NCBI GenBank assembly: GCA_026874595.1
Contig: CM049319.1
Span: 15,837,601-15,901,600, forward strand
Reading direction: 5' to 3'
Source: Sipunculus nudus
Taxonomy: Eukaryota; Annelida; Sipuncula; Golfingiida; Sipunculidae
Length of the DNA: 64,000 nucleotides
The translations under genes were made by a program, and so were the position numbers. The notes below the pieces were generated by a model. That model was given only the letters and a program-made list of their open reading frames with translations. It had not been told where the DNA came from and searched no databases. Each line of letters begins with the position of its first letter. Positions within the stretch are counted from its first letter, which is position 1. This document shows positions 3,202 through 64,000 of this stretch, one piece after another.

Positions 3202-6200
3202 TGAAACAAATATGTTTTCTGAACATGTTTTCACCTTGGGCCTATGTATAAATGCATATAACTCTATATGATAATGATAGGCATGTATACTGTTCAGATA
3301 AATATGTCATTAAATGGGTATTAGCTTTTGTCTAAATAAATTTCACATAAATTTACAATAATATTGTGATATGTTTTAGTTTATAGTATGTGTTACAAAA
3401 GTTTTACTTTAAATTTCAGTATATGATGCAAAAATAAAAACCCACCAAAACCAACACTTGGAGTAAATGAAGTTAACAACTAATAGTTAATTTAATGGTT
3501 ATTATTTTGTGTCTCAAATTTATCCCATTAAATTTTGTATTAAAAATCAGATATTTTTTCTGGCTGTCTTTGTTATACAAAATAACCTTCAGCTTTTGCA
3601 ACCCGATTGTATGTACTGTGACAGCCAGGGTACATCTCTGATACCTCCCAGAGAAGTTTTCTTGAAGAATAATTTATGTGTCACTTCATGAATAATTAAA
3701 TAGCAGCCTGTACGATTTAAGAGCAATATGAATGATTAAGTTTATGACATTTAGTGGGGAGAATGAATCATGGATAGGCTGTCACTTAATGGACACTCTG
3801 TATATAGGTAAATATCTTTGGTAAAATTTCTCCACACTTTTCCACTTATGAACACCTTTTTTTTTGGGGGGGGGGGGGGAGGGAATATTTTTGCCCAGTA
3901 GTAACTTTTTTAAGAAATGCATCATTAAGTAAGGAAAATCTGAGGCCAAGGCCTTACCTACAACAGGAGATAAAAGTATCTACGTTTCTTAATATTTATG
4001 TTTGTCTTCCACTCTGGTGGTCACATGCAAAATAAAACAGCCTCAGTGTATAGCTTCTGATTTTATGGTTTCATATTTATAAACACAAAAAATATGACAA
4101 GATGCCTGAGACACATCCAATCAGTCATAACATTTGATATATTCCAAAAAGTAATAAAACTTAGATTTTTTTTTATTTTAAATTTCCTTAAAGGTTGTCA
4201 TTTCCATAGTTGGTTTACTATGGTGACATTTGAAATGTATGTCTTTAAAGATTATAATTAAAAAGAAGCAGGTGACTATTGGCTGAACAGGCTATAGAAG
4301 GAATGTTGTGTGAGATAACCACCATTGGTCATCACCAGAGTGAGCCATATGACATTCTGTGTCCTTAAGCCAAGGTTCACTCTATAGGGCAATAATAGGA
4401 ATTAAGGATTAATATGATGTGGTCTTTAAAATTGATAGGGAAATGCCAAAAGAGGTGTGATCCATGAAGAAACTCGTACAGAGGAACTTACTGCATGGAA
4501 GGTTAATTTTTTAGGGTAATAAAGAAGAAAAGGTATATGAAAAAGAAATCCCAAACCAACTTCTGAATAAAATAGATATATGGACCAGATAGACCAGTGG
4601 ATATTTTAATGGATTCAGCACCAGTTATCAGTGATAATTGTTATTTTGCTCTGATGTTTAACAGTTACAGGAGAAATCAAGACACATGGGGTGAACTCAA
4701 GACTGATCTTGTGTAAACCACAAACATAGTGATAAAAAAAGAGTCACATGCTGGACTAAAAATATAAGCTGTGAGGAACAGTAGCCATATGAAAGATGGT
4801 CAGGGCTTTCCTGCAGATTGTTGTCAAAAACAGATCAAAGGCTGGCTGTGTTGGAAACCAGGACAGGTTCAGCCAACCACAAGCTGTCAGGCTGGTCATT
4901 GATTGGATCGCAGTCACCATCCAACATCGGCAGACTGGCAGGGTTCCTCTTGGCCTGTGTGCCGGACAGCTTCAAGCTTGCGACTCCAGTTCTATTTTCA
5001 GACTCCTGTTGAAGAGGATGGAATGGGCAGTGGCCTCATTGGTATCAATAATCCTGAGGGGGGAAAATGCAAGAATCATGAGATTTGCAGGAATATTCTT
5101 ATCTGCTAACTCTGCATATCCACATATCAATATGCTAAATAACAAGCTTCAGTTTATATGAAAGATCTTTTAAGCAGGGCTGTTCATTACGTGTGATAAT
5201 AAATGACTCAGTGATAAATAAATAAAAAGCTATTGATGTATATAATTACTAATGGGCTGATGATCAATTATAATCCATGATCCATCCGGTTGATCTAAAA
5301 CTTCTGGTGATAGATCTTGCAGTGCCATAATCGATAGGAAATTGTTGCACGTAACTTAGGCTTTGTGGTCAGGAAATGAGTTCTTTCATACATGTTGTGC
5401 AAGCCACCTGAGAAAAATCTGCATTTACTGAAAAAAACTTATTTCCTTAGTTACTATATAGACATTTAGGCTATAGAATTATGTCATTATTAGCCTGAAT
5501 GAAGGGCTATACATATCAGTTAAGATTATTTACTGGTTGGTGTATACATAGTCTGAAAGTTCTAAACAACCAATTATTTCCCATTATCGGTGGGTAGAGG
5601 TTGACTGATTTTTACTGATGATTGATCATGAAATTACAACCGATTCCCAACACTAAGTATACATGGTATACAGTAACCCTAGTTAGTGAAAATAGTAGGG
5701 GGGGGGGGGGGGCAACAAATTCATTTGGATAAGGAGGGTATCAGGTTTTTAGAAGCTGTGACTATTTGAATGCGGCATGAATTGCAGTACATATGTGATT
5801 GTTTCGAACAAATGTGTTTCCCTTTAAATCTCAGACTCAGTTAAATAACAGAAGTAAAAAAAGTAAGAAATAAAATTCACAATTTTAAAGTTCAAACTGA
5901 ATTTGAATGAGCATGTTTCTTTCAGGAAAAATAAGTACGCATTAAAATTAAATTGCACGCTTCCCTTGCATTTAACTGGATGAGGGAATGTTTATTATAT
6001 GTTGATGACTTTGATTAATTCTTAATTAAATACTTATATATTTGAATAATGTCAACAATAGTGAGAAAAAATTTAATTAATTTTTTTTTTTTAGGGGGGG
6101 GGGGGGAATTGTTGTTTGTTTTGTCTGTTAAAAAACTTTTATCTGACATAAAGACAGTTGATTAATATTCTGACCTGTACTAGCAGAAGTAACTTAAGAT

Positions 6201-11698: not shown

Positions 11699-11759
11699 GC
11701 GCGCCCGGGCGGGCGCCTTTGAACTACAGGCCCGTGACAAACGCGCGCCCTGGCGGGCG
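11699..11759. repeat. Two GC-only 17-mers, 44 bp apart
   Basis: Positions 11699-11715 and 11743-11759 are nearly identical 17-base words made only of G and C (one mismatch), each of the form GCGCGCCC-GGCGGGCG. The centre of copy 1, CGCCCGGGCG, is a perfect palindrome. In a window otherwise around one-third GC this is exceptional and marks the most CpG-dense spot seen. Confidence 0.85.
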
Positions 11760-11884
11760 TTATTGGAGTTTAAAGCCTTAAACTCCTGCATTAGCTTAGC
11801 ATGCATTATGTTGCAAATGCAAAAACTTGTATACCAAGATTTGATCATCATTGAGATACTTGTAATCAGACAAAGCTCATGGCA

Positions 11885-21660: not shown

Positions 21661-23400
21661 TATTTTGCAGTCTATGAGTTTGGCACTTATCAACCTTTCA
21701 TATCATGTAGATGCTATAAAGCATATTTATAGAATTGTTTTCCTTCTTTTTGAAAAGAGCTGATAATTCCAGAAATATTCTTTGAGGAATTGTGAATCCT
21801 GTCAATTAATGTCTCCTAAATACCTCTTCTAAAAAATTAAAATGTAATTGACAAAAAAGTGAAGTCATTTATTTAAAAAAGTGTTGAAACTATTCTTTTC
21901 AGTTATGAAACTCCAATCAGAAACCTGACATGATATATCTTAATGAATCAAATTGGGGAAAAATTAAGGTTAAATTAAATAATTGGGCTGGCTGTAAACT
22001 GATGATCCCCAGAAAACCAGTGTGTTGTTAAAAATTTGTTTTTAACATCTTTGCGGTATTATGCCAGTTCCATATTATACACACCAGATGGTTTATATTC
22101 TTAGGTCAACAAGACCTGTTCTTGATACTGATAAACACAATCTGCTCCAATTAGAACGGGGTGGACTGGCATCCAGACTGCTACATTATAACATCATACT
22201 GACCACTGTCTGAAGGCAGTTGTGATTCCCCAAGTGTCGAGACAACCGGAAGAATAATTTGCTGAGAACCACTGGCAAATCGCCAGGCCTGAACTTGCAT
22301 TTATTTGAACCCTATGTTGTGGCTGGTTGCCATATTAATTAAGCAGCAATAACGCGAGTCTGCTGTATGATTTATATGTACACTACTCCCTTATGGAGTA
22401 GAAAGCATGGAGAGCGCCACCTTGATTATCAGGCAACTGTAACGAGATTAATATCAAAGTGTCTTGTTTTTATCATGACCGGATCGTCAGAAATTGGGAA
22501 AAAGACTAAATATTGATAATACTGATATACTGAGACTGAAATGTTGATGAAAGCCTGGCCTTGTTAACAAAATGATACAGAGGGGTATACACACTTTATT
22601 ATGGTGGAGTAGTTTCATCATGAAAATTATCATATGAGAAAAATATTTATCATTGACGAGACCAAAATATTGATGGAAATCTGGTATGTGAGACCCACAG
22701 AAAGAAGAAAATACAATAGTATTAGTGAGCCACATCTGTGTCAAGACTGAGGACCCCAAAAAAACATGCAGGCAAAGCCATTTTTGGCTTGGAATGAATT
22801 ATGCTTCCGTTGGTCATAAACTTTACAGGTTGTTCCAAAACAGATACAAGGGAATATTAATAAAAGCACATGTGACTGAGAATCGCAGAAGATGAGCGAA
22901 CTTTAAAGTGAAATAACGGCAGCCGGTAACGCCCACATATTGGAATGTACTATTAGACATCAAAGGGGCACTAAATCCAGTCAGAACCAATCAAATTCTG
23001 CCTGTGGAGATAAACTGACAGTGTACAGGAGGTTAAATTGAGGCAAATTTTGTAGGGGAATGTTTTATTGTGAAGAAATAGATAAAAAGCAGTAGTGTAA
23101 GATCTATTTCACATTTTATGCACACATTTCATAAAGCAAGGCCATATTACATCTGCTTATAAGTGTTAAGAATGTATATCATAGTTTGTTTAATCTATGT
23201 GAATTTTTGCCATGTATAAAATTTCAGAAGACCTTAAAACACACCTGTGTCATGGCTGAACAAATTAAATGCCTCGTGAAAATTTGCCAAAAAGGATCTT
23301 GGAGGTTTCTAGGTGGATTATAAACAGGTTACCTGGGAAACAAAAGTTGGGATTTTCCAGTGGAGGATTCTCGTATAAGGATCCACTGCTTCTGTTGGTG
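21660..23400. other. Non-coding DNA upstream of candidate exon
   Basis: No repeat family or exon recognised apart from AT-rich stretches. If 23485 is a first exon, the promoter would lie in its last part. I see no consensus TATA box close to it. Confidence 0.4.
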
Positions 23401-23484
23401 CTCTGAATTAGTTCCCATGATGCAGTTGGTCTGTTGGTTTGTGATATAGTGCAAAAGGAGTTGTATGTGCCTTTAAGTTTGAAT

Positions 23485-23613
23485 ATGGTGAAGGTGCCAC
23501 CTGTGATGGCCAATGGGCTGAGTCCTCGCAACATGGGCTCAATACTCGCCACTGACAACATGGCGTCCCTCACCAAGTTATATGGGGAGGAAAACGTCAA
23601 ACACTTCCTTGAG
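23485..23613 (+). CDS. PPFIA: Candidate alternative first coding exon of liprin-alpha
   Basis: An open frame begins after an in-frame TGA at 23404 and runs 43 codons from the first ATG (23485, A at -3 and G at +4) to a strong donor, GAG|GTAAGA at 23613/23614. Third positions are about 70% G or C, unlike the AT-rich surroundings, which argues for real coding sequence. Two more ATGs in frame also have good context (23506, 23560). The end is phase 0, matching the phase-0 start of the next recognised exon at 42828, so splicing would give ...NVKHFLE then EFASLTKEL. The peptide does not resemble the usual liprin-alpha N-terminus (MMCEVMPTINE...), so it would be an alternative start from an internal promoter. 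Alternatively it is an internal exon (an AG lies at 23424-23425 behind a weak pyrimidine tract) or belongs to another transcript. Confidence 0.5.
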
Positions 23614-23716
23614 GTAAGACACAAAAAATCAGGAAAGACTTTTAAGATTTTTAAAAATATATATATGTAAAGTTGTACATAAAATGTGTAGTGTAAAACT
23701 TATGCCACTGGTCATT

Positions 23717-24180
23717 TTACCATAAATTATTAAAAAAAAATAAATAAACGATAAAGGGAGATAGTGCAAATTGTTGATGGTGCCATGTCCTCTGGATATT
23801 AGGTTTGTGTGGACTCTTAAAAAGTTGTAAACTGATTAAATGCTGTTACCATAAATAATCTAAAAAATAAACATGATTAAGTGAGGTAATGCAAGTCCTT
23901 GATGGTGCCATGTCCTCCACATATATATATATATATATATGTGTAGACTCTAAAGGTTCATAAGCTGATTAAATGCTGTTACCATAAATATCAAATGCAT
24001 TTGTGCAAGTGGTCCTTAATTCCAAGTCAAAGTGTGTGTTAATTCAAACGATCATAGACAGATTAAATGTTGTTACCAAAAATAGTGTAAAATATACAAA
24101 CAACAACTCACAGTATTGCAAGTCTTTATGATGCAATTTCATATTGATATTATACTGGGGTCCAATGGTTGAATCAAAAA
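23717..24180 (+). repeat. Tandem repeat, ~130-bp unit, 3.5 copies
   Basis: TTACCATAAAT or close variants recur at 23717, 23846, 23979 and 24073, each followed in order by 'agtgcaa/atgcaagtc', 'gatggtgccatgtcctc', 'gtgtggactct' and 'ctgattaaatgctg'. One unit has gained an (AT)n tract (23922-23940). The array starts about 100 bp after the candidate exon. Confidence 0.8.
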
Positions 24181-26280
24181 GGTCTTTAACTATAATAAAT
24201 TCAGACTCCTCAAAAACTGGTAATGAAAATTTTACATCTACCAGTATAACATAAGGTTAGTATGTACTTTTAGCTAAAGATAAACATTTGACAGTATAAT
24301 CATTATTGTCCAGTGTGCCCCAGGTGCTGTAAGCAATTATACTTGATTTTGCTGGACTTTTCCAGCCATTAAATATTGTCCCATTTGCCATGTCAGTCAC
24401 ATGCAAAATCCCAAGTCAGTAGCTTTATTTAACATTGAAAATTTTCTGTATTTTTCCTCAATTTTTTGCAGATCTATGGAAAACCGAGGAATTTTATTTT
24501 GCTGCATTGTAATTCTTGAATGTAATGTTGCATAATTTTAAAATAAAATCCTATGTACCAACTGAAAACATATATGACATATTTTCAATAAGTCTTGCAA
24601 ACATGCCTCAAAGGTGATTTCACTGTTACTTTACTGGAACCTGCATTACAAGCCCAACAAGGCTAATTCTGATAACCCTGTGGGTATTTCAAGAAAATAT
24701 TTGTAAATATTATAACTTTTACTTTTCTTAGGTAGGATGCTGCATACAGAGTCTAGATTAAATTAATAAAATACAGACTTGGATTTGAATTTAATAATTT
24801 ATGCCATATAACACAAAACAGTATCCCATGTGCAACTGTCTTTCAATTTATACCAAACTGTAAATTTTTCAGAATAAAAATATTGCCAAAAACAAATAAA
24901 CAGGCTCTAGTGAAGCTATTGGTATTATATTTGTATATTTTACATTCACAGTATTTATATCTTGTTCATAATATTAGGTTATTTCTGTGGTATGCAGGTA
25001 CATTAAAGGCGCTTAAAGTGTAGGTTTTTAATACCACAATGTTTTTCTCAAGATAAATCATTTTATGGGAATTAGGCCAAAAAGGGATTATTCATGGTTT
25101 GGCTTCCATCCACTGTAATCTTACATAGCTGAATGATAAAAAAATGTCAGAGATGATGTAAATGATCATAGTAAGTTTACTAGCATACTAGCCTCCTATG
25201 GTAATATGTCAATATATTGATTGATGAAAATAAACCATGATGATTGATAGCTCTGACAATAATCAGTGCAATTACTAATGTGTTTAACAGGAAGTCCCTG
25301 TTAAAGAGTTAATATAAAAATGAATTCAGTCTTGTTAATCTGAGTCAGCAGCCAGACACATAGACAATTCTTAATCTGTATCTCATGAAAAACTTTGCAA
25401 GAAAGATTGTTTGATTCTCTCAAGATATATCAAGATTTATGAAGTCGGCGGAAATTAACACGTACTCTGTGTCGTGGTTTCATCAAAGCAATACTGCACT
25501 TCTATTATTCTTTAATTCCCGCTAGGTTTCTGCAAGGTGTAATTTCAGAAAAAAATTACAGATTCCCTTGTCATGAAACAACAATAATATTATGTCAGTA
25601 ATCTGGTGCTGAATAATTTTATAAACAATTCTCTCAATACTAAGGGCTAATTTTATCCATAATTCTTTGATCACCAAAGATTACAAGCTGATAATCAATA
25701 TCACCACTTCTCCGAACAGCCAGATGGTGAACATAGGCTACCGGTAATCTCTTGCGTCTTTAGACTGAATGGTATTACTGGTGTATTAATAGAACACATT
25801 ACTTATTGAAATAGCAGTGAGTGATTATATTTGACATTTTGCGTCCTCACTTACTCAATCTTAATATAACTTTTATTTGCAAATTCACCACACCAAAGTA
25901 CATCTGAATGTTTCTGCTGTATAAATGTGGAGATATCTTCAGCTTTGTACACTGAAATGCATCAGTCATTTTAGTTTAGTTGGTTTAATTAACCCTTTAC
26001 TATTAACAGGCTCACTAAAGCACACTCTAATTTGTCACCAAGAACTCCCTCATATGATCAGATTCTCTCAGGTCTCTAACTGATTGATATTTATTTTCAG
26101 ATTCAGAGATTTCCTTTAACCTAAAGCAATCCTACTCTGTAGAAACTATTGAAAATGTGGTAAAGATGCAACATAAACTGAAAAAGATATTCAATTGCCA
26201 GCAGTGTCAGTGTAAAAAGTGTGAAAAATTGTACGATTCTAATAATGTAAAAAGTAAAAAGGAATGGGTTAAGCCTGCTT
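24180..26280. other. Non-coding intronic DNA
   Basis: AT-rich unique sequence; no frame of 60 codons or more and no repeat I recognise. Confidence 0.6.
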
Positions 26281-26284
26281 TTTA

Positions 26285-26715
26285 GGGGGTTTCTTACCGT
26301 ACTGACTACGCTGAGCTTAAGCTGCCCTACGCTGGCCTACTTGGCAATGTACACCAAGGGATCCAAAGGGGTACGTACACGAGATGGACAAAAATTAAAC
26401 CTGTTTATTTTTTTTTTTTGCATACTGTCGGCTTAAAACACTGGACACAATAAGTAAGCAGTATTTACGCAAGTCTATGGAACACTACGCTACTGTATGC
26501 CAAACCTACGTATACATACACACCTTGCGCCTTTTGTACAAAATCCTATGCATAGGTACACCAATGGCATATCCCGTGTAGGCACACAGTGCCTATGCTT
26601 AGGGTACTCAACCATACGTCATCACAGCAACATTTCCTGCATGAGTACGCAGCCTAATTTTGGCATACTCGGTACCGCAATACGCAACTCTACGTAGGCC
26701 CGGTGTGAAATCCCC
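26285..26715. mobile_element. 431-bp inverted-repeat (MITE-like) element
   Basis: The left end GGGGGTTTCTTACCG matches the reverse complement of the right end (GGGGATTTCACACCG) with few differences. The interior is distinct from the flanks: higher GC and more than ten TACG words (CTACG, GTACG, TTACG), absent outside. A flanking target duplication is not obvious. No coding capacity, so a non-autonomous DNA element is the likeliest reading; the 66-codon frame inside is incidental. Confidence 0.5.
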
Positions 26716-27320
26716 ATTAATATAACATTTTATGTCATCTTCAGGTAAGCAAATATGGATGCATCCTTTTTTGTCTCAGTTTACTTGGTTTATCTTTTTC
26801 AAAAGTCTAAGCAACAAATGTACAATGAGAACTATGATAGTATTTTCCGTTATATCAGAATTATTTTCCTCAATGCAATATTTTCTTTCTATCTTCTATG
26901 TCTCATTTGGTTTCTCTCTTAAATAAAGGGGTTCATGAAGTGTAGTCATTAATAAATAATTAAGGGCTGCGTGTTAATAAGGTTGTGAAATGCTCTACTT
27001 TGCTGTGTCTTTGAGTGTTAGGACACCATATGAGTTACATAGGGCAACACAAGCACTTGGCTGGTATGTTGAACAACCGGTGGTATTGATCAAGCATTAT
27101 CAAACATTCATGTCCCCGCTCACTGTGTGCAAACACAATGTGTTGTTACTCCTGTAACATTGAAACGGGTCTGGAACTGCCCTTCCATATCTCTGATTAT
27201 TACCTCCATCACCAAAATAAAGTGAAGGTGATGTTTTCACCCCCCCTTTTTAGCTCAGCTGACTGAAAGTCATCTGAGCTATAGCAATCACTCTTTGTCC
27301 GTCGTCCGTCTGTCCGTCCG

Positions 27321-29289
27321 TTAACCAGGCACAAATCGTAACCGCTGGACCTAGAACCTTGTAACTTGGGATTCTGAGAGGTCCATAAAAAATCTCCTTG
27401 GAAACCAGAAATTAGGTCTCTGTTACCCATATCCTTTGAGCTATGTGGCCCCAAAGTACCCCCCAGAAAAGTCAAAAATTTCATACAAAAACTTCAATAT
27501 CTCATTAACTACTTGACTGATGGTCATGATTTTTGGCATACATATTGATCATGAGATGTTACATCACTTCCTGCAGACTGGTGGTGCCACCTGTATTTTT
27601 CGATTTTTTACGAATTTTTTTCTCTATTTTTGAGACCTTTAAAAATGTGAACATCTGTTAACAAGGCACAAATCATTGAGACTGGACTTAGAATCTTAAT
27701 TCTTGACACACTCAGAGGTCCATGAAAAATCTCCTTGGAAACCAGAAATTAGGTCTCTGTTACTCATATCCTTCGAGCTATGGGGCCCCAAAGTACCCCC
27801 CAGAATAGTCAAAAATTTCATACAAAAACTTCAATATCTCAATAACTACCTCACTGATTATCATGATTTTTGGCATACATATTGATCATGAGATGTTCGA
27901 TCAGTTCCTGCAGACTGGTGGCGCGACCTATATTGTTTGATTTTTTACGATTTTTTCTTTTATTTTTGAGACCTTTGAGGATGCTGTCATCTGTTAGCGT
28001 GGCACAAATCGTAACGACTGGACCTAGAATCTTCATTTTCCACACATTGAGAGACCTATGAAAAGTCTCCATGGAAACCAGAAATTAGGTTTCTGTTACC
28101 CATATATTTCGAGCTATGGGGCCCCAGATTACCCCCCCAGAATAGTCAAAAATTTCATACTAAAACTTCAATATCTAATTAACTACATCACTGATGGTCA
28201 TGATTTTCGGCATACATATTGATCATGAGATGTTTCATCAGTTTCTGCAGACTGGTGGTGCCACCTGTATTTTTCAATTTTTACGAATTGTTTTCTCTAT
28301 TTTTGAGACCTTTAAGGATGTAGTTATCTGTCAACAGGGTACAAATTGTAACGACTGGACCTAGAATCTTCATTCTTGACACACAGGGAGACCCATGATA
28401 AGTCTCCATGGAAACCTGAAATTTGGTCTCTGTTACCCATATCCTTTGAGCTATGGCACTCCAAAGTACAGCTCAGAATAATGGAAAATTTGATACAAAA
28501 GCTAAAGTATCTGAACAACTAATGCAGAGATAACCATAATTGTTTGCATGGATATTGATCATGGAGTGTTTCATCAGTTTCTGCAGACTTTTGGCACCAC
28601 CTGTATTTGTTCAGTTTTTATGAAATTTTTCTCTATTTTTGAGACCTTTAAAGATATGAACATCTGTTAACAGGGCACAAATCATAAAAACTGGACCAAG
28701 AATCTTCATTCTTGACACACAGGGAGACCCATGAAAAGTCTCCATGGAAACCTGAAATTAGGTCTCTGTTACCCATATTCTTTAAGCTGTACGGCTCCAA
28801 AATACCCCCCAGAATAATGGAAAATTTGATACAAAAACTGCAGTATCTCAATAACTACAACACTGATGGTCATGATTTTCGGCATACATATTGATCATGA
28901 GCTGTTCCATCAGTTTCTGCAGACTGGGTGCGCCACCTCTATTTTTTTTCAAATTTTTACGAATTTTTTCTCTTTTTTTGAGACCTTTAAAGATGTGGTT
29001 ATCTGTCAACAGGGTACAAATAGCAACAACTGGACCTAGAATCTTCATTCTTGTCATGCAAGGAGGCCCATGAAAAGTGCCTGTGGAAACTTGAAATTAG
29101 GTCTCTGTTACCCATATCCTTCAATCTATAGGACTCTGAAGTATCCCTCAGAATAATGGACAATTTGATACAAAAGCTGAAGTATCTGAACAACTAATGC
29201 AGAGATCACCATGATTCTTTGCATAGATATTGACCATTAAGTGTTTTTATTAGTTTCTGCAGACTGGTGGAGCCACCTGTATTTTTGTA
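27321..29289 (+). repeat. Six tandem ~337-bp units
   Basis: Units start at 27321, 27658, 27994, 28331, 28667 and 29006 with variants of 'ttaacagggcacaaatc', at spacings of 336-339 bp. Each then carries 'actggacctagaatctt', 'ccatggaaacc.gaaattaggt', 'ctctgttacccatatcctt', 'tattgatcatgagatgtt', 'tctgcagactggtgg' and 'tctctatttttgagacctt'. The sixth unit is broken by the Helitron-like insertion and resumes at 30599. The even spacing and moderate divergence point to amplification inside the element. Frames of 60-91 codons here on both strands are shadows of the repeat. Confidence 0.9.
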
Positions 29290-30598
29290 TCCACCAAAAC
29301 GAAGTTACTATGTTTTTGACCTGGTTCCTCCGCTGCCGCCGCGTTCGTTTCCAGAGAGCTCCTCGGAAACTAATGGACCGATTTTTCTGAAACTTACACC
29401 AATTATCGGGTCACATGTGAACTGGTGCCTAACCAATTTGCGTTGACCTCTGACCTTTCCTCTCTATCCAGTGTCCATTTGTGGGTCTGTTTCCACTCAT
29501 AAACCCTCATATCTCGGGAACCGTTTGACCGATCAGGAGATAAAATTTATACAAATGTAGCCCTTGGATTGCTTTATAACATACACAAAAAATGGTGGCG
29601 CCACCTGTAACCATGTTTGCACAGTGTCCATCTGTTCATCTGCCTTGTGTTAAAATCACTCATATCTCTGCAGTGAATTGACTAATTCACCTGAAATTCG
29701 TCATGCGTATACATCCTGGATAGCTGTCTTGATTTTATGACAGGTGGCGCCACCTACATTCACTTTAACGCTGATGACATCCAAGCTCATATCTTGGGAA
29801 CCGTTTGACCGATCAGGAAATAAAAATTTATACAAATATAATCCTTGGATTGCTTTATAACATACACAAAAAATGGTGGCGCCACCTGTAACCATGTTTG
29901 CACAGTGTCCATCTGTTCATCTGCCTTGGGTTAAAATCACTCATATCTCTGCAGTGAATTGACTAATTCACCTGAAATTCGTCATGCGTATACATCCTGG
30001 ATATTTTTCTTGATTTTATGACAGGTGGCGCCACCTACATTCACGTTCACGCTGATGACATCCAAGCTCATATCTCGGGAACCGTTTGACCGATCAGGGA
30101 ATAAAATTTATACAAATGTAGCCCTTTGATAGCTCTGTAACATACACAAAAATGGTGGCGCCACCTGTAACCATGTTTGCACAGTGTCCATCTGTTCATC
30201 TGCCTTGGGTTAAAATCACTCATATCTCTGCAGTGAATTGACTAATTCACCTGAAATTTGTCATGCATATACATCCTGGATAGCTTTCTTGATTTTATGA
30301 CAGGGGGCACCACCTACATTTACATTCACGCTGATGACATCCAAGCTCATATCTCGGGAACCGTTTGACCGATCAGGAAATAAAATTTTGCATGTGTATA
30401 GATCTCACATAGCTCTAACTTGGACAGCTTTCTGGATTTGTGGTAGGTGGCACAACCTACATACACATTTAGGCTGCAGACATCCATGTTAATATGCAAC
30501 ATACCTCACTCTGTTTCCCCTTGCCACTCAATCCATGCCTCACTTCACTCTGATTTTGGCAGATACACGTAGTCACTTGTCGGCTACCCGTATTCTAG
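29290..30598 (+). mobile_element. Nested Helitron-like non-autonomous element
   Basis: The insert begins TCCACCAAAACG and ends ...ATTCTAG, with host A before it (29289) and host T after it (30599), exactly the 5'-A|TC ... CTAG|T-3' rule of Helitrons, with no target duplication. Removing it restores the host 337-bp unit at correct length: TTTTTGTA + TTTTTAAAG aligns base for base with TTTTTCAATTTTTACG of other copies. A short stem (CGG-CTAC-CCG) lies 8 bases before CTAG, shorter than the usual Helitron hairpin. The interior consists of a unique 5' segment with CCGCTGCCGCCGCG and a tandem array of 280-bp units. No Rep/helicase is encoded, so it would depend on an autonomous partner. Confidence 0.65.
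29512..30400 (+). repeat. 280-bp tandem array with GGTGGCGCCACC palindromes
   Basis: CCGTTTGACCGATCAGG recurs at 29521, 29801, 30082 and 30361 (period 280). Each unit carries two GGTGGCGCCACC perfect 12-bp palindromes; five intact copies are at 29594, 29743, 29875, 30024 and 30154, with two degraded ones near 30304 and 30447. Adjacent copies are very similar, more so than the surrounding 337-bp units, so this array is younger or recently homogenised. Confidence 0.9.
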
Positions 30599-30784
30599 TT
30601 TTTAAAGTTTACACATTTTTTCTCTATTTTTGAGATATATAAATACAGACTTAATCTTGGCCTGTTGGTTAATCTGTTTGATGCTTCAGTTGAATGGGTA
30701 TATACTACCATTCTGATGATAAAATTTCCTTTTGCGAATCTCTTCCCAGTCAGCTGAGCGTCATGACCCATGGGTCACTTGTTT

Positions 30785-31160
30785 TTGCTTCTGTTTGTCT
30801 GTTTGCCCTTGTACAAGAAACTACTGTGCAGAGCCTTAGTAATCTGCATAAGGTTAATCTGAAAATTCATTTAAATATATTAAATAAAATCAAATGAATA
30901 GCTCAATACTCATAATTTCAGTTTCAGGGATTAAAATATATCTTGCTTTATTTTGGTGACATTTGTAGTGATTTGAAAATACATCATTGCATGAGGTGCA
31001 AGTTACATTCTTAATGTAAACAAAGATTGTTAATCCAGGAACAACTAGAACAGTAGTCAGAGACTCCATATACACCTCCACAGGGATCCTAATTAAACTT
31101 TTGAAACTGCTACATACAAAAATGAGTGACAGTACACCAACTCACTTTTAAATCATATGG
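30785..31160. other. Non-coding intronic DNA
   Basis: Nothing recognised beyond random short frames. Confidence 0.5.
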
Positions 31161-31162
31161 GA

Positions 31163-31420
31163 GGCCCTTCATACCAGTGAATGACTCTGGCCCTCTGCCA
31201 GGATTAAGAAACTGCTCTGTCTTATAATGGTATACAATCCTTAAAATTAAAGTCACATTTTGGTGATCTAGATTACCTCCAAAATTTTATCCCTAACCAT
31301 CCACAAAATTTAATCAAATAATGTATTCAACTTTTGGCAGAAAGTTTCCAACCAACCAACCAATAACAAATAAACAGTATAACCAGAAATATGCATTCTC
31401 ATGAAAACATGCCTCCAACC
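31163..31420 (+). repeat. Dispersed repeat A, copy 2
   Basis: Ordered word matches with 16568-16825 (ataccagtgaatg; attacctccaaaa; ccctaacc; ccaaccaaccaa), as described for copy 1. It is directly followed by repeat B sequence, so A and B may be parts of one larger degenerate element. Confidence 0.65.
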
Positions 31421-31429
31421 ATGTTTGCG

Positions 31430-31810
31430 GTCTTTAATGTGGGATACCCCGCAACCTGTGTTTTCATTCACTTATTGAGCCAAATTCAAAGGTTCATTGG
31501 TGCATATATGTTCCCTAACAAGTACAATTAGCATTCACTTATTCTGTCTTTATTGGGTCTTTATTATTGTACAATTGAGCATCTGTGACTGCATATTTGT
31601 GAATATTCCTTGAAGTCCCTCCTGGATCTGCCTGGACCTTGAGCAACCCACACCAAAATCTGTTTGATTCTTCATTGGCCCATCCCAAAGGTGCCATGAA
31701 AATTTCATGGGATTCTGTTCAGGATTGCATGAGTTGTGTTGTGAACAAACACACACACACCAAACTGAACGGGAATGAAGACAAACCCTCCTGACAGGGG
31801 CAAAGTTAAG
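31430..31810 (+). repeat. Dispersed repeat B, copy 1
   Basis: It shares 'gattctgttcaggattgc', 'ttgtgaacaaaca' and 'ccctcctgacag' with 33478-33590, and its first part ('tttgc.gtc', 'cattca', 'gttc..gtgca', 'tattccttga', 'tcctg') with 32600-32770. A (CA)n tract sits at 31750-31762. The 116-codon minus-strand frame at 31550-31900 lies over this repeat and is not taken as a gene. Confidence 0.6.
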
Positions 31811-33477
31811 AAATGTACCCAATAACCTCAAGGAAGCTGCCATTGATGAAAGCGAACTAGCAGCAAAGAGACCAGCCATCAAGGTTGGAAATAAAATCAT
31901 TTATGTGCTGCTTATAAAGGTTTATTGCTGGATCAGTGGAGATGCCATGTTGGATCCGATATAAATCTACCTGTATTAGGCCTGTATCGGGCTGTCGCTG
32001 GCTTGAGGCAGAGGGAGAAGAAACAGAGGACCATAATGGTGACTTTATGAGTGTTTAGTGTAGACAGAAACCCAGGTCTCTATTTATAAAAAAAAGTGCT
32101 GTATATTGTTCATGTAGCCCCATCATAAATAACATCGGAATGTGAGTTGATCTAAGTGATTTATGTTAGTTACCTCTACTGGAAACATGTTGGTATTTAC
32201 AAAAACAGCTTCAACTAAGAGAAAGTGTATATACTCATCATCATCAGTTACCAAGCTCTCTGTGTCCAGTCCAAAGGATAGAAGTAAAATTGTTAAAGAA
32301 TTTAGAGTAACACACAGGTTTGGGGTTAATGCACAAACAATATTAAAAAATACACTAGTTGGAGATAAATACACAAAGTTTTTTTAGGGTTACATTGATC
32401 AGAAGTTAATGTAGAGAAAAAGAAAAGGGAACAATACACTTGGTAGGAATGAATATTCATGCAAAAGAATACCTAATCAAGATCAATGTACAGACAAGAT
32501 TTTACAATATCATGATAGTTCCAGATTATTGTATTAGACACAAAGATATACAGAAAAACACATTGTTTAGAGGTTTCTTAGTTAGAAATGTGCATTCTAA
32601 GGAATGCAAGCCTTTGCCATGAGGGGGTTCCCTATTGTGGTATATACTCCCAAAACAATGTTTGCAGTCACTCATTCAGCCCATATTCCCATGTTCTTTC
32701 GTGCACAATTGACTGTACATTTCTGTTTATTCCTTGATGAAGTTCCTGAATCCAGATCATGCCATAAAAATTCTATCACCGTCCAGTTGTTTACGTGCTT
32801 TTATTCACAGATTGCTGATTTTCTCAGATAGAAGAATTCTTTAATCCAGATGTAATTTACTATCAAGATTATTTAATCAAAGTTAACAATAACAAATGTC
32901 CAAAATATATATATTCTGATAGTTTGCCCTATTTTCCACTTAACTGATCCTGTTCTCTGTCTCTCTCTCTCTCTCTCTGTATTAACTCCTGTTCTTATTC
33001 CTGTCTCTTCTCTCTCTCTTAGCTCTCTATCTCTTCGACTCTTCTCTCCTTAGCTCTGACCTTCCCTCCCTGGTTCAGTAACCAGTATCTCTATTTATAC
33101 ATTTGCCCAAAATAATAATTGTAATTAAGGAATTTCTTACAGCATTAATACAAGACATATTGTGTAATACATTCAACGCCTTTCTAGCCCTCCTGTGAAC
33201 ACCTATGTCTAAACTGTTAATTAATTAGTTTATCTGTGCCTGTCACTTTAAGAGTAAACCCTGTCAAATGTGTGAACATGCTTATTAATGAATTCTCTGT
33301 GAACACTTATCAAAGAGCTGGCAGTTAAATAATAAACTGAATTGTAATTAGAAAGTTATTCTGCACAGAAGTCTGCTAAATACCTGTTTCATTCCTTAGG
33401 ACTGATCACCTTATAATATCTAATGACAATTGGTAAAATAAAATGATTTGAATTATCATAAAATTATTACTCTGGTG
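31811..33477. other. Non-coding intronic DNA with CT-rich tract
   Basis: Apart from the repeat B fragment it contains a (CT)n-rich stretch at 32955-33060. Overlapping plus and minus frames at 32123-32387 have no recognised similarity. Confidence 0.5.
32600..32780 (+). repeat. Dispersed repeat B, fragment
   Basis: The region 'tgtttgcagtcactcattcag' through 'tattccttgatgaagttcctgaat' matches the first half of 31430-31640 with divergence. The second half of the repeat is missing here. Confidence 0.45.
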
Positions 33478-33595
33478 ATAATTCCATGTGATTCTGTTCA
33501 TGGTTGCTTGAGTTACATTGTGAACAAACAGCCATACACACTTTGACACATGAACAGGGATGAATACATACCCTCCTGCCAGAGACAACAATATT
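33478..33595 (+). repeat. Dispersed repeat B, copy 2
   Basis: 'gattctgttcatggttgctt', 'ttgtgaacaaaca', 'acatgaacaggga' and 'ccctcctgccagag' align in order with 31710-31800. Confidence 0.65.
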
Positions 33596-33982
33596 ATATA
33601 TACAGAAGAGAGAAAAGAATGTGGAATAATATTTAAAGTGAAGATAAACAGGACAGAGTAATACTATTACTATATAGTTAAAACTGAACTGCAGAACGAA
33701 TACAATATGTAATGTCATGGTTAAATATTTGTATAAAGACTAATGCATAATGGCTAATACACCTGTCTGAGACCTCTACAGGTAAATATTATAGAACAGT
33801 AGTGTTTACAATTCACCTTCTTCCATATGAATGTACAGCAGTATAAATGACGAGGAAAAATGAGAAATCTGAGTCTGGGTAAAAGAAACATTTATAAACC
33901 TACTTTATACAAATAAAAAACAAATAAGAAATTATGAAATTAAGAATTTTATTTTGCTGATAATAAAGAAAGTTATGTCGCT

Positions 33983-33999
33983 GATAATAATAATAATGA

Positions 34000-34031
<32 letters not shown>

Positions 34032-34064
34032 AATAATAATAATAATAATGATAAAATAATAATA
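33983..34064 (+). repeat. (AAT)n microsatellite
   Basis: Repeated AAT/ATA triplets with a few interruptions are directly visible. Confidence 0.95.
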
Positions 34065-34354
34065 GTTGTATGTGTATGTGGTGGGGGTGGTGTATAAGAG
34101 AGAGGTTTGGAAATAAAAAAAAATATATATTGAAGAGAAGGATTATAACATAGTAAGGTTTAGTTAACGGGAGTCAGCTTGTCTGGTTTATCATCTGCCT
34201 GCTGGTGTATATATTTTAAATTACATCCATTTAATGCCAGCTATATACAACAATTTACTTTTATTATTGAATCTAGCTTTTCAGACGTCCAGCTAATATC
34301 AGTTTTGTGAAAGAGTTATTACCAGATTGAACCTGTAGATGCACTTATCACCAT

Positions 34355-34542
34355 AATCTTAGACAATTTAAGCCTGAAAATAATTTAAGCAGTATTTAGT
34401 TATTAATCAATAAATAGTCTGTTTTGTAGATGAAGCTATAAAGTTTATAGTCTTAGACAGCTTAAACCTCACAGTAATGTAAGCAGTATTTAGTTATTAA
34501 TCAATAAATGTAGTTAGATTAGTAACATGAAGCTATAAACGT
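34355..34542 (+). repeat. Tandem duplication, ~94-bp unit
   Basis: 'aatcttagaca..ttaa' at 34355 and 'agtcttagacagcttaaa' near 34449 are each followed by an identical 'gcagtatttagttattaatc' segment and by 'atgaagctataaa'. Two copies only. Confidence 0.8.
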
Positions 34543-37500
34543 TATGGATCTCTCCATTGGCTTTTTAGTTACTTAGCAACCAACATGCGTTTATAGCTGT
34601 AACTCGCTCATGGCGGGTCAGACCTGGGTGAGTTTAATTTCTGTTATTGATTGGCTGCTTTTATGGAAATAAAATTTTGGAATAAATCACAAAATTATTA
34701 TATCATAATATTTCAGTTAACACTTTCTTTTTTCTAAAGTAAAGAAAAACTTTGAATTCCAAATAGTATTTTTAATGCCAGATGACAACACAAGAGACTC
34801 AATCATGTCATAAACTTGTATGTATTCATGTTATCCTTGCTGAACATGGTGGCTAATTATAATTGTAATTAATGTAATTATAGAACTGTATTTATTATTA
34901 AATCAACATAACAGGATCATCCACCTAACTTGGCAATGATGATTGCAAGAACTTTTTTTGGGTCAGATTTAAGTTATAATCTCTGTTTAGATATTGTTAA
35001 AGGCAAGAGCTTATTTATCAATAACTGATTTCATAAGGTTATTGCATTGTAATATTAGGTTAGGTGGTCCCAGTAATTAATGCAAAGTATTTCATTAAAT
35101 ATAAAATTGGGAATTCTAAAAATTATTTTTACTTGCTTAGTTATATATAGGTATAATTTTTCTATACATAGTAAATATAAGCATTGTAAAATTCTATAGA
35201 CCTGAGTAGTTTATTTTTTTCCCTGATATTATTAGTGATATTGTTCATAATATTGCTGGATATTGCTTGCTTTGGAATACAGCTAAGCTTTAATACTCAT
35301 GAATCATATTTCGGAGTTGTCAGTGATTTATGCTCTTAGCTTAAACTTAAATGAACAACATATAACAGAATTGTTTGAAAAACGCCCCCCTTCCCCGGCC
35401 CCCAGCCTCCCTCAAATGTGTATCACCAAAGAATTTTAAAACTCTGACCTTATTCCCATTGAGGCAAACTTGCTATTAATTATATGGTGGGTGACTCACT
35501 TGAACAGCCACATATCGATGAGTACATGTACAAAACATAATTAACCTCTAAATATAACACGCAGTACGCCATGAAATCTATAAATTATTAATAATACCTT
35601 GAAAAAACCTTGAATACCAAAGAGAAATAGTGGAAGGGCAACAACCTTTTCAGAAGTCTTGTGCTGTGTTCTCAGTCATACCGGCACATGGTTTCTCATT
35701 TTATTATTGAGTGAGGCATGCTTTGACAGCCAGGGTCCAAAACTCATAGTATAACCATTGTTTGTTTGAGTATATATTATACTGATGGTGAAAAATCTTC
35801 AGTTCATCCTACATTTTATTATGTTGATTATGGAAAAATGTGTAGATATCAATTTTTATCCTTCAATTGTGAGTAAACATAATTACTGAAGGAATCCTTA
35901 AATTTTTGTTTATCGGTTAAATTTATTGTCATAATTATAAAACCCGTTTTTGTTCTTGATAACTTTAAATTATATATACCATTACTGAGAATATCTACCA
36001 TTCCATGCTCTTTATTAGTTGTACCAATGCATATATTATACTGTATATATGGTATATATTTATATTTTATAAGTATTAATATTATATTTTAATATTATAA
36101 AATATAATTATAGGGAATCTTCATTATATCATTTTATCATTCTCAAAAAGTTAGATACAATATTAAGACGAAAATCTTGAAGCTTAGTATCCTGGACAGG
36201 CAAAGATGCTCGTCTGTATGTGAGATGCAGATCTTCAAAAAGCCACACTCAAAGCAGCGAATATGACATGGGTATCTTGTCCCATTAAACCTCCATGACA
36301 CCCATGGCGTTTTCCATTTAGATAGGCAGTGTCTTATTGATAGGGATGATACAGGGCGGAGGCCTATCACTCCAGTAATGTGTAAAATGCAGCAGTCACG
36401 GGCATACTTTGCTATCTGTATTTCCCCAGGCTTGTGTTGACCTGTCAGACTGTATCTTATACCCACCCGCTATCTTTGTGTGGGTTGTCATCGTAGTGAA
36501 TTTATCAAAATGTAATGCTTTAACAAATATTAACTCTGATAACTGGTATCTGTGTTTTTCACTTTTTTGTGTGCCATTTCCTGTACATGGGTTCAACTAA
36601 TACTCCTAATCGATGGGTTCTCGGATGTGAAATTTAATGATTTGAATATGAATGCTGCATGTCAGTCAAATACTCGCTTAAATTGAAACCATGTCTAACA
36701 GTATATTTTGCTGCTTTTGTTGATATAGTTATGCTACAATGTGCCTTTGAAGTTGACAAGTCCATTTAAATGCCTTGATATATATATATTCAGGTGGAAT
36801 GCAAATCAATGGCAATATATTCTTTATTTTCTGTAATTTTATATATCATCATAATTTATTATCATTTCATTTTGTTATTCTTTGTTGTAAAATCACTTTT
36901 GAGTATAAGACTTAAAAATTTTGTTTATTACATGTATTTCAACACAAATATGTATTTTTTTTTTATTTTAACCAACAGTGTACTGGGTATATTCCATTTG
37001 GGATTCTTTTTCATTCTTATTTCATTTTAATTATTTTAATTCATCATAATTTACAGAAGTTTATCCACAAACACCTTTCACTGATATCTGCTTTTGACTT
37101 CAGCAGTTATTATTTGTTCACTGTGTCTACTATTATTGTATGTTCCAGGACAGCCACTTCTTGTCCACACATTGGATTTCTGTCTTGCTCTCTTGAAAAC
37201 CCAGTGTGCTTATTTCATGGTCTACCAGTACCTTCTCTGTACCGCCAGTCCTTATATTTCATGCAGTACTTGTCTGTTACCACTGAGAGTAGGAATTCTA
37301 TATATCATTGTTGTTTGTTTTAAAACTAGTTGAACTCTGGTTAAATTCTTAATTTTAACTTTTTAGATTAGAACCTACACATCCCTGTTCATATCAGCAG
37401 TAGTCCATTATTTAACACATTCTTAATTTATCTTTACAGAATAGAACCTGCATGTCCATATTATTAGTAGTCTCGTATTTAACCCAATGTGCCCCTTGAC

Positions 37501-38400
37501 TTGGTTTCTGTGACTTTCCTGAGGGATGCAGATTAGATGCAGATTAGATGCAGTGTACACACAAGTACCTAAGACACACAATGTTTAAAACTCCAGCTTT
37601 GATATTTAACAGCTGAACTTGAAGGGGCTTAATAGTACTCTTAATTTATTTAGGCAAGTGATAGATATTTAACAGCCAAAGTTGGAGAATCTTGATAACA
37701 CCTATTTTCTCTGGAAAGTGATGTCTCATTTCGTCCAATGTCACAGTGATAGTGTACAGGATTGATCAGTCAGATAGCCATCCACCTACTTTGTCAGCTG
37801 GAGTCTATCTATCACCCGGCTGCTCAATTAATTTGCGACTCCGAGAGGGAGTTAGGAACTAACGGTCTGGCCAGACTTGGTTTTTGTCAAGGTTGAACTT
37901 AGATACACTTCAAGAGGAGAATTGTAGCCTGGTGATAGGATTCCCACCCATGTGACAGAGTGACTCATCCAAGGTGATGGCACTAGAAATAGAGAACTGT
38001 GGGAGATGGTTGATTGCATTGAGTAAATAGATGTGCTGGAGTAAATATATGTGCCAGATGTCTCAGAGACTTGTCAATTCAAATTAATATTCTCCCTTCC
38101 TCAACTTATGATTGTTTTCTCCTCTGCCAAATCAATTTATCATTCTTCATGGATTTGGAAATGTTAGTTATAACTGGACCAGCTTCAACCCACTCTGTTG
38201 GTTATGGTTACTCATTAAGATGGAAGAACTAGTTTCTGGATTTAAATTGCGGTAGTCACAGAAAACCCTCAAAGAGCTCTATTTTCTCATAACTTGAGGA
38301 TGGAATTTTGCCCTACTTTTAATTTACTGATGTGCCAAAGGTAGATACAAAAAATAAGACCTACTAGAGTTTTCTTTTCCATTATGTCTCACTTGAACAG
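34543..38400. other. AT-rich non-coding intronic DNA
   Basis: No exon or clear repeat recognised. Opposing frames at 36143-36600 (107 codons on minus) lack any recognised domain. A short repeat of 'gattagatgca' lies at 37529-37551. Confidence 0.5.
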
Positions 38401-38403
38401 ATC

Positions 38404-38750
38404 TTGTATTCCCCTCTCCCTGGCGTAAAAGGATCTTCCTTTTCTTCTCTCTTGCTTTCAGGAACTCTCCTTTCACTACCCTTGCCTGCATGGGTCTTCT
38501 TTTCTCCTGCTTTGCTTACAAGGGTCTTCTTTTCCCCTGTCCCTGTACTATTGGGTTTCTTCCAATCTTCTCTCCTTGGCCTACAGGGGTCTTCATTTCC
38601 CCTTTCCCTGACCTTTTGGGGTCATCCTTTTCCTTTTTTCTTGAGCACCTAAATAGATCTTCTTCCTTTCCTCTCTCCATGGCCTACAAGGATTCTTCTT
38701 CCCCTTCTCAGGCCTACAGGGGTCTTCCTGTCCATCTCTGACCCACAGGG
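38404..38750 (+). repeat. Pyrimidine-rich minisatellite (CCTACAGGGGTCTTC)
   Basis: Variants of 'tggcctacaggggtcttc' followed by 'ttttcccctctccc' repeat at irregular spacing of about 35-60 bp. One strand is almost pure C/T between the words, so long purine tracts lie on the other. The 82-83 codon frames here are repeat artefacts (Leu/Ser/Pro/Phe-rich). Confidence 0.8.
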
Positions 38751-41700
38751 CTGTTTGCTTTTTATTGATGCCATATCTGCATCTGCTGTCCCATTTTGTG
38801 TATGAATAGACATTTCTTTTGATTCCTTCATTTTTGGGGCACAAGATTTTGATTTACCTAAATTTCAAAACATAGAAGGGTTGCGACACAGGAGTTCTGG
38901 CCATGGACATGTCAGCCATGGTTTCCCTTACTATCAGCGAATCGGCAGACTGTTCAAGGGAAAGTGGTCTATTCAGAAAACTTAAGATGGTTTCTTAAAA
39001 AAAGAATAGGGCGATAAGTTGTTATAGCTGACCTCAGAGATGTGGCAATTTTCATGTTTTATTGAAAGCCAATGGTTCTTCTTTCAATTTCAAGCATTGG
39101 ATCATCAAAGACAACCATCAGTTACAGAAAGAACATGCTATAAAAGCAAAATCACCATGATCCCAGAACTTTATATTCAACAGAACCCAATATTTATCTT
39201 GAGATTATTTAAAAAAAAAATAGTTTTAGGCGAGATTTAATCAGCAAAATATGGAAGACACATAATTAAAAAGTTATTGACAATGATTTTCCAGTTTTAC
39301 AGGTAATGGAATATATAGCAGATTCAATTATTAATTATTTATTGGTTTGTCCAAACAGAGGATTGATTATAAATAATGAACTGACTCCCAACACTAGCTG
39401 ATCTCAGTGGATTCATTTCAAATTTACATTTTTTACCAGCACGTTCAGATTTCTTAATTAGGTTTTAGATATTACAGGAATCCCACAGGAAGTTCAGGTG
39501 TCTGCTTTTATTTGTTAAAACCCTTGAAAAGTTTCTGTGGGTTTTGACATTCCAAGTTTAAAACATGAAGAGTTCATTAAGAGTAAAACATGACGCCTCC
39601 CAGCTGTTTTCAGGCTCATAATTAAAACAAGCCAGATGTGACCAAGTCTTGTAGCTGTGTGGTGGGATCCTTGTTTATGACAGGCAAGAACTATTGCTTA
39701 TGTTGTCACCATTACTGGTGCTGATCAGTTTTAAACTAGATTTCCTTATTACAACCCAGCTGAATGTTAATAAGAACCTTGAATAAAATATCATTGGCAC
39801 TGTTTAGACTATTGATTGGAAGGTGGGGCTTTGGAGCTGACGGTCTTGTTCGATTCATCCTAGTGTCTTAAATGTGGCCTTTGTCATCGTTAGGGCCCTG
39901 TATAATTAGTCAGGTCAAGTAGATGCTAATCTATACACCAGTGAAGATATGTTATAATTTGGAATTGCACTCGGTAACACATACACCTTTGCCATAAGAA
40001 GTACAGTCGTATTGGATCTTCATCCGAACCTACACCAGAATTTAATGGTTCATGTTCGATCCCTCCATAAAGTTTTATATAAAATTGATGCAGAAAAGTT
40101 TGTGTATTCATGTTGTGAGGTAAACAACATACACAAGTGAAAACATAACCTCCTTGTCAGAGGTAAACATGCTCTGATCACTTGGACACAAATATGTGGT
40201 TTTTCATTAAAAACAGCCAAGTGTCTTTGAGTGGTCATTGTTTTCGGTTCTACTTAACTTTTCTTGGTATCAGGATGTGGTAGCAAGTAGTGGTAGGAAT
40301 CGGTAATTAATAGATTATTATATGTACCAACTTTATTACTGTGAAATATGCTGTATAGCATTACAAATAAAAGCTCAGTCTTAACTGGAACATCCCCCTG
40401 AAAGGTCAAGGTAATGCCTGGGTTGTTGCCACTTAATTGTTGTACAAGGTTAAGTTTTAATGCTGTTCCCTGTTTTGTGCCCCGTCTTTCTTATATCTCT
40501 GTCAGAATAAGAATATTTTATTAGGTTATTGGGATAATATGAATTCTTTGGATGTGCATACATAATTGTTTGTAATAGACTATGCAGTCATGCAATTGAT
40601 TTAATCGATTATTAAAGAAAACGACCAATCGTCGATATAATCGATTAATTGGCACACCACTTGTAGTTAGAGATGAAACTGTTAATGTCGGCACTTTCTT
40701 TGCTACACTGTTCAGAGCCGGTCACATGACGGACTGTTGCCTGTGTCCTGTCCCTGTTTAACCTTTTCAATACAGCATGGGTAGAGTGTACACATGAAAG
40801 CATTATGATGAATAAGTAATGACAGGCTAATGGTATAATGCATAAACATTGTTGCAGTAACCCTGTCATTGTGTCCCTTACTCAGGACTGCTGAGAATAA
40901 TTAAAGTAACATAGAGTCCTGCTGACATTGTCAACAAGTGTCACAATGGTTGAGATCCATACAAAGTAATTAAGTGGAAGAGGTAATTGGTACAAGAGTA
41001 ATAGATTGGTCCCATCAACGGTATGTTAATGAGGTGTTTTGGAGCAGAGCTGGGTGCTTATATAACGTGCATACACTGTTTTGGGAATCCCTCATATTAG
41101 CAGCTCCTTGCTGCAGTGAAATGTCTATTGAATTGTGGATGGAACGCAGAGACTGTACTGAACATGAAGCTGCAATATTCCAGCCTAGACAGACAAAGAC
41201 ATAATACGCTAATTCAGCACTGTTTGAGGTGGCCCTGACTTGCTTTTATCTTTGGTTATTTTAAGCAGAAACTGCTGGCATTTATTGGACCTTGTTCAGG
41301 GCTTAACATTAACAGGAAAGTAACACTTGCCTAAGGGGCTGTCAAAAGCCCAGAGCGATAATAGTAGGTTCCCACGGTTAAGAATCCTTGAAAAGATTTC
41401 ATTTGTTTTCATGGCCTTGAAAGCTAATTTTGAGAATTTCCATGAAAACCCTTTGAAATTCACTTTAATGTCTGGCATTTGCAGACCAACCTTTAACTAC
41501 TATTTCATAATGATGACTGATGCATGAAAATGGAAAATAAAAAATGATTAGAATGAGATGATGGAGGGAAAATAAAAAGCAGCCATGTTAAAAATCTAAA
41601 ATTCAAATTTATGTCCTTGAAAAAAAAAAAAAAAAAAAACTTGAAATCTTAAGAAAGTTTACCTGCTAGTCATTGTGGCCCAAGTACCCTTTAAAAATGT

Positions 41701-42827
41701 GTTTGTGACTCAGCGTGTATTTTACTGTAGGTTCTAGGTGTATTTTGGATAATTGATGAGCAAATAGTGAAGTATATGGGTTGATAGGATTTTAATCAGA
41801 TCAGACCTTTTGTTAACTATCAAATCATAACAGTCTCAGTTTATTTGCAATAATATCACTGGTTTGCCTTAAACTTGATTGCCAGCTGGATGAATTCCAA
41901 CAAAAAATATTCAATAATTTGAACCAGTGTTAATATAATTAATGTTGAACCCTGTTGTTGTTTGATTGGCTAATCTGCTGGCTGCACCTAACTATAATAA
42001 AAAATACAACTACTGATGTTTTCAAAAGATGACACGTGCCAAGTAATGAGAACTCGCGTTATTGTCCTTTCCAAACTAATCAAAATCTGTTTAACTGTCT
42101 CTGAAGCTTTTAGTTTGACAGTTCATTTATGATAGTTACACACGTAGAGGGTCAGGGAGGGATAGTTGGCGTGTTTCACTAGAGATTGTAAATATGCTGA
42201 CAGCTGCAGGTCCTTGTGTAACCATAATTAAATAATGCAAGGGAAATACAAACTAAGAATTTTTTTAGATCTCTGGTTTGCTGATATAAAAAACACATTA
42301 GTAGTATATTTTCTGCTCTACCTTTTCAGTTATGAATAGCATACGACAGCACATACCCAATATTAATATTAAATTCAAAACTCTATATATTACAAGTACA
42401 CACACATCCATATATTATCAGTGTACTTAAAAAAAGTGAAAGTTGCGATTATAGTTGCATTTATGGGTATTCACGTTCATGATAGCACCACTAACACATA
42501 CACAATAAAATATATAAACTGCAAGAGTACTTAGAAATGCATTTAAGAAGATGTGTCATTTTTGCAATACTTATGTATGTCTAAGAATAACACCTGATTA
42601 AGTAAGATTAATATTATTCTTAATAAAATTTTTTTGTCCTTAAATTTTGCTATGAAATTATTATGACAAAATTCTTCAAATAATAGACATGAATGTTAGG
42701 TTAATTTTCCACTTTATACATGTATTCAGTTTATTCTCTTCAACATTTCCATATATGGCATCATTATCTTGTATGGCTTCTTCACCTTATTTAGTATTAT
42801 TTACTTAGTTTGGTGCTTTATTTTCAG
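38750..42827. other. Intronic DNA with one repeat fragment
   Basis: Around 40105-40185 'gtgttcattgtgagg..aaca' and 'cataacctccttgtcagagg' resemble the end of repeats A/B. A poly-A run is at 41620-41639. No exon recognised before the acceptor at 42826-42827. Confidence 0.5.
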
Positions 42828-42929
42828 GAATTTGCCAGCCTGACCAAGGAGCTGAATCAGATCAGAGAACAGTTGATGGAAAGAGAAGAAGAGATCTCAG
42901 AACTGAAAGCTGAACGCAATAATACTAGG
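42828..42929 (+). CDS. PPFIA: Liprin-alpha coding exon (N-terminal coiled coil)
   Basis: This 34-codon exon has acceptor TTTTCAG at 42821-42827 and donor AGG|GTAAGT at 42929/42930, with phase 0 at both ends. It encodes [15 protein letters not shown], then a stretch ending ERNNTR. That is the highly conserved segment following the first coding exon in liprin-alphas; Drosophila and vertebrate proteins have EFA.LTKEL...[15 protein letters not shown] at the same place. Heptad-spaced leucines and many Glu/Lys fit a coiled coil. Liprin-alpha is a cytoplasmic scaffold at presynaptic active zones that binds LAR-type receptor phosphatases, RIM, ELKS and kinesin-3; the N-terminal coiled coil mediates self-association and several of these contacts. 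Confidence 0.95.

Positions 42930-60772: not shown

Positions 60773-64000
<3,228 letters not shown>

Follow-up and report, generated by a model that had tools for sequence, protein, structure and literature searches.

Canonical liprin-alpha proteins (PPFIA1-4, Drosophila Liprin-alpha, and C. elegans SYD-2) and alternative first exons from intronic promoters are the described systems closest to the locus presented here. According to a review (PMC8044993), structures 7D2H and 7D2E correspond to helices H2 and H3, respectively, of the coiled-coil region CC1 of liprin-alpha-2, and the H2/H3 pair exists as a dimer or forms tetramers, setting the degree of self-assembly. When SYD-2 is autoinhibited, its coiled-coil N-terminus is bound by its SAM domains (PMC10695385). 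In a table of an alternative-promoter study (PMC2527337), human PPFIA3 is one of eight entries with promoters validated by ChIP-PCR; thus, internal promoters would not be unheard of in the liprin-alpha family.

The window analyzed in this study is a DNA stretch of 64,000 nucleotides. It contains two liprin-alpha exons and, upstream of them on the same strand, a candidate first coding exon. The downstream exons are like those of the canonical proteins, with identities of 83% (exon from 42828) and 96% (exon from 60773) to the tblastn bait, a human liprin-alpha-2-like sequence. In contrast to the canonical proteins, the candidate would give an unrelated start of 43 residues, and neither the canonical start nor H1 was detected within the window. 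The candidate resembles alternative first exons from intronic promoters in its ATG, phase-compatible donor, lack of a good 5' acceptor, and very long intron; it differs in that no description of the proposed protein-level change was found in the literature examined. Compared with the liprin-alpha-2 CC1 structures (PMC8044993), the proposed isoform would be devoid of H1, and the part it would share with other isoforms starts at position 5 of the crystallized H2 chain 7d2h. On balance, the candidate probably serves liprin-alpha as a true alternative first coding exon, transcribed from an internal promoter and spliced to the H2 exon.

Liprin-alpha exons in the window

The coordinates of the host gene exons and of the candidate are listed in Table 1. 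The exon 42828-42929 matched liprin-alpha-2 chains in the PDB (7d2g, E 9.7e-13; 7d2h, E 1.5e-12), as did the exon 60773-60937 (7d2e, E 2.4e-11; 7d2h, E 3.8e-9), for which the query reached 60940 and thus took in one extra codon. The H2 and H3 coiled-coil segments of CC1 are therefore present by sequence, with the second exon covering just the start of H3. The acceptor preceding 42828 is in phase 0.

Table 1. Coordinates of the liprin-alpha exons and of the candidate first exon in the window
Feature	Position	Strand	Characteristics
Possible 5' untranslated part	23407..23484	+	Same frame open, without in-frame ATG
Candidate alternative first coding exon	23485..23613	+	43 codons, phase-0 end, peptide MVKVPPVMANGLSPRNMGSILATDNMASLTKLYGEENVKHFLE
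5' splice donor GTAAGA	23614..23619	+	Junction GAG/GTAAGA, score 6.4
Implied intron	23614..42827	+	19.2 kb, deduced from where the donor and acceptor lie
Conserved liprin-alpha exon, start of CC1 helix H2	42828..42929	+	34 residues; tblastn E 3.7e-11
Following conserved liprin-alpha exon, end of H2 and start of H3	60773..60937	+	tblastn E 2.9e-26

Human and Drosophila segments of the canonical N-terminus and H1 gave, among the top five matches per query within the window, E values of at least 0.33 at scattered places. These matches are at chance level and give no sign of a canonical H1 exon in this stretch; the canonical first exons encoding the N-terminus and H1 are probably located before position 1. 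No match to CC2, the single alpha helix, or the three SAM domains was detected within the window, and these parts would lie beyond position 64000. The long intron implied by the candidate donor agrees with the original prediction, which had placed the conserved exon 19 kb downstream. This interval includes two tandem arrays with long units lying near each other, 27320-29286 (337 bp, 5.8 copies) and 29506-30388 (281 bp, 3.2 copies).

Anatomy of the candidate first exon

The original prediction of a 43-codon exon at 23404-23613 was correct in the number of codons and is amended here in its coordinates. A TGA at 23404-23406 ends the preceding frame, the + strand frame is open from 23407 onward, and its first in-frame ATG is at 23485; hence, the predicted interval contains a stop codon and a possible 5' untranslated part in addition to the exon 23485-23613. 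Each of the exon's four in-frame ATGs (23485, 23506, 23533, and 23560) is preceded by a purine at -3 and followed by G at +4, which bears out the good start contexts noted previously. The GC content by codon position is 0.53/0.35/0.70, the last value being equal to the approximately 70% that had been reported for third positions, and the surrounding 2 kb have a GC content of 37%. The donor, described in the original prediction as strong and phase 0, is equaled or exceeded in score by few GT sites of both strands (13 of 6903, the candidate itself included). With both this donor and the acceptor before 42828 in phase 0, the anticipated in-frame join to the conserved liprin-alpha exon is confirmed at the level of reading frame. 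Without splicing, the frame would continue for 18 lysine- and AT-rich codons past the donor to a stop ending at 23670. A well-placed ATG followed by a frame open up to the donor is what characterizes an alternative first exon, and the candidate has both. A short open frame of 10 codons (23417-23449), in another frame, lies ahead of its ATG. From these features and the comparisons given below, the stretch 23485-23613 is likely to be a coding exon; that it joins liprin-alpha is also regarded as probable, with less certainty.

The AG sites between 23201 and 23600 were scored in the same way as the two genuine liprin-alpha acceptors, which reached 4.67 and 3.38. All phase-0 sites in this interval scored -1.99 or lower, and the best site in any phase scored 1.84 (23426). 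With no good phase-0 acceptor on its 5' side in this interval, the candidate has the appearance of a first coding exon, as originally proposed; use as a cassette exon, inserted after the canonical first exons and ahead of 42828, is disfavored. An additional non-coding exon may be present farther upstream. TATA-like motifs occur upstream of the candidate (TATAAGG at 23374 and TATAAA at 23319); they were given no weight because such motifs are common in the window, with 181 and 182 matches to TATAWAW on the two strands. An assignment of the candidate to non-coding RNA or tRNA was rejected, none being found at Rfam gathering scores or with ARAGORN.

The minus strand opposite the candidate contains an open frame of 144 codons (23265-23699), which had no Pfam match above the cut-off. 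Among the 29 frames that run from stop to stop over 90 codons or more, only one is longer. Diverged AT-rich direct repeats spaced 94 to 133 bp apart (23726-24096) are located just 3' of the candidate exon.

Comparison with chance and with alternative explanations

A generic exon scorer, summing splice, start, and coding terms for first and internal pieces on both strands, was applied to the window; it was built with the candidate already in view and uses approximate matrices and frequencies. At a donor cut-off of 3, the candidate ranked first among 49 pieces with a score of 30.9, the genuine exon 42828-42929 scored 23.6, and the best piece overlapping neither of them on the same strand was antisense to the candidate (17.4). 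The genuine exon 60773-60937, with a donor score of 2.03, is lost at this cut-off. At a donor cut-off of 1, 144 pieces were obtained, and the best distinct ones were the candidate (30.9), the exon 60773-60937 (28.8), and the exon 42828-42929 (23.6). The next was a first-exon-like antisense piece at 38.5-38.7 kb (38520-38680, minus strand; 23.5), which falls among imperfect tandem repeats of 32 bp. In dinucleotide shuffles of the window (blocks of 200, 500, and 2000 bases, 300 shuffles each, donor cut-off 3), the best first exon reached or exceeded the candidate score in 2/300, 1/300, and 0/300 cases, respectively, and in 1/300, 1/300, and 0/300 cases when only phase-0 ends were considered. The top score among the 900 shuffles was 47.0, above that of the candidate.

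Judged by single measures such as GC3 alone or codon log-odds, the candidate is weaker. Of the 539 open frames with 43 or more codons, five tie for the highest GC3 over a 43-codon stretch: the candidate and the frame opposite it, the frame opposite one genuine liprin exon, and one frame on each strand at 4.8-5.0 kb. The coding log-odds calculated with generic codon frequencies amounted to 0.46 bits per codon for the candidate, the genuine exons having 0.33 and 0.48. Among non-overlapping stretches the best one of the candidate ranked sixth, the five above it including one genuine exon and the antisense of that exon. Three-base periodicity in 129-bp windows placed the candidate at the 99.3rd percentile and the genuine exons at the 75th and 99.2nd, the second exon being measured to 60940, one codon beyond its end. 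A strict filter (a well-placed ATG, 43 codons or more, and a donor agreeing with the consensus at 7 of 9 letters) retained six donors on both strands, of which only the candidate had a GC3 of at least 0.5. A looser filter retained 36 donors ending ATG-started frames of at least 43 codons, with a runner-up GC3 of 0.57, so that the candidate alone reached 0.60 or more in either set.

Other GC-richer patches were observed in the window. The + strand open frame 4793-5161 (122 codons) has a stretch with a GC3 of 0.70 and no Pfam match, and the antisense piece 5005-4918 scored 21.8 as an internal exon at the looser donor cut-off. The patch 11700-11830 contains near-palindromic GCGCGCCCGGGCGGGCGCC-like runs, is open on both strands, and is perhaps a mobile-element remnant.

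That the candidate arose by chance or is a relic, namely a GC-richer patch left by an old mobile element or pseudogene with an open frame that ends at a good donor, is rather unlikely. This explanation draws on the 144-codon antisense frame, by which both strands are open at the candidate, on the similar GC3 or codon scores of the other GC-richer patches (4.8-5.1 kb and 11.7 kb), and on the AT-rich repeats that begin about 110 bp downstream of the exon. However, those patches combine frame, start context, and donor less well than the candidate, its score was matched in at most 2 of 300 shuffles per block size, and no second copy of the exon was detected in the window at E 1e-3. A recognizable mobile element was rejected on the last result and on the Pfam search, in which eight translations (those of the two liprin exons, of the candidate and the frame opposite it, and of four among the remaining 28 long open frames) all remained below the curated cut-offs; the candidate may nonetheless be a degenerate one. 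The alternative in which 23485-23613 is the real first coding exon of another + strand gene, nested in the intron or small and unrelated, with a coincidental phase match, is unlikely. Single-exon structure of such a gene is improbable in view of the lysine- and AT-rich codons and the stop that follow the donor, and, among + strand internal pieces starting at 23.6-42.8 kb, none scored above 8.7 except an extended form of the liprin exon, whose phase matches, although the phase agreement with that exon has a one-in-three probability by chance and the candidate peptide matched no Pfam family (E up to 1) and no PDB chain (E up to 10).

Origin of the candidate by duplication of the H2 exon was also rejected; the two share ASLTK, and the residues after it do not align by eye. 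The motif occurs at 23563-23577 and 42834-42848 with partly different codons, and such a match was given by 15 of 20,000 shuffles of the candidate peptide. It was not built upon because it was noticed after the fact and the following residues are unaligned.

The favored reading, a liprin-alpha first exon, overlaps with a further possibility that concerns its novelty only and is not additive with it: that the isoform is widely shared in this animal group and already predicted in annotation. This is conceivable, though not what we would expect. The ChIP-PCR-validated PPFIA3 promoter (PMC2527337) is in keeping with a shared isoform. No description of such a liprin-alpha N-terminus was present in the literature among the matches listed, which speaks only weakly against it, as isoform sequences are rarely printed and isoforms mostly appear in annotation only; a stretch of the candidate peptide used as a literature query gave no match. 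In viral contigs, no relative of the candidate frame was found (5 pattern matches, 0 confirmed), nor of a liprin control exon (48 pattern matches, 0 confirmed), and prokaryotic genome contigs, searched with the candidate frame, likewise gave no relative (47 pattern matches, 0 confirmed). Since the liprin control in viral contigs also found none, the misses in these collections carry little information.

Proposed isoform and its possible role

If the candidate is a liprin-alpha first exon, as favored here, an internal promoter, located in the long 5' intron, would start a transcript near 23.4 kb, translation would begin from the ATG at 23485, and splicing would connect the exon in phase 0 with the H2 exon that starts at 42828 (junction 23613/42828). 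The canonical start and H1 of CC1 would thereby be exchanged for 43 new residues, and H2, H3, and all downstream parts would be kept. The original prediction that the protein would lose the first coiled-coil segment is thus retained for H1 and restricted to it, H2 and H3 of CC1 remaining in the proposed product. With these and the downstream parts retained, the isoform could still self-assemble and bind CC2 and SAM partners. It would be placed under separate tissue control and carry an altered N-terminal cap, which could bias H2/H3 self-assembly or SAM-mediated autoinhibition.

Single-sequence AlphaFold2 modeling predicted helices at residues 14-33 and 35-42, with a mean pLDDT of 82.9 for the best model, a spread of 62.8 to 82.9 over five models, and a pTM of 0.42. 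According to these models, residues 14-42 of the new start would be mostly helical and continue into H2. When the H2 register is extended backwards, V and F occupy the two a/d positions immediately before the junction, and the third and fourth are G and K; therefore, a coiled-coil continuation would be short. A helix could run from the new start into H2, with the coiled-coil pattern fading within about 10 residues.

The most specific form of the proposal is that the isoform belongs to this animal lineage and is made from the internal promoter, that H1 is replaced by a helical cap running into H2, and that this cap shifts the H2/H3 balance between dimer and tetramer and with it the threshold of active-zone scaffold assembly in particular cells. 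In this full form the proposal is speculative and improbable. If the exon is unused, it would be a good example of how convincing an exon-like stretch can look. If it is used, it shows that a master scaffold of the presynapse can have its start exchanged by promoter choice, within the region that controls its self-assembly, and the locus would offer a testable natural route for tuning active-zone assembly with the partner-binding parts unchanged.
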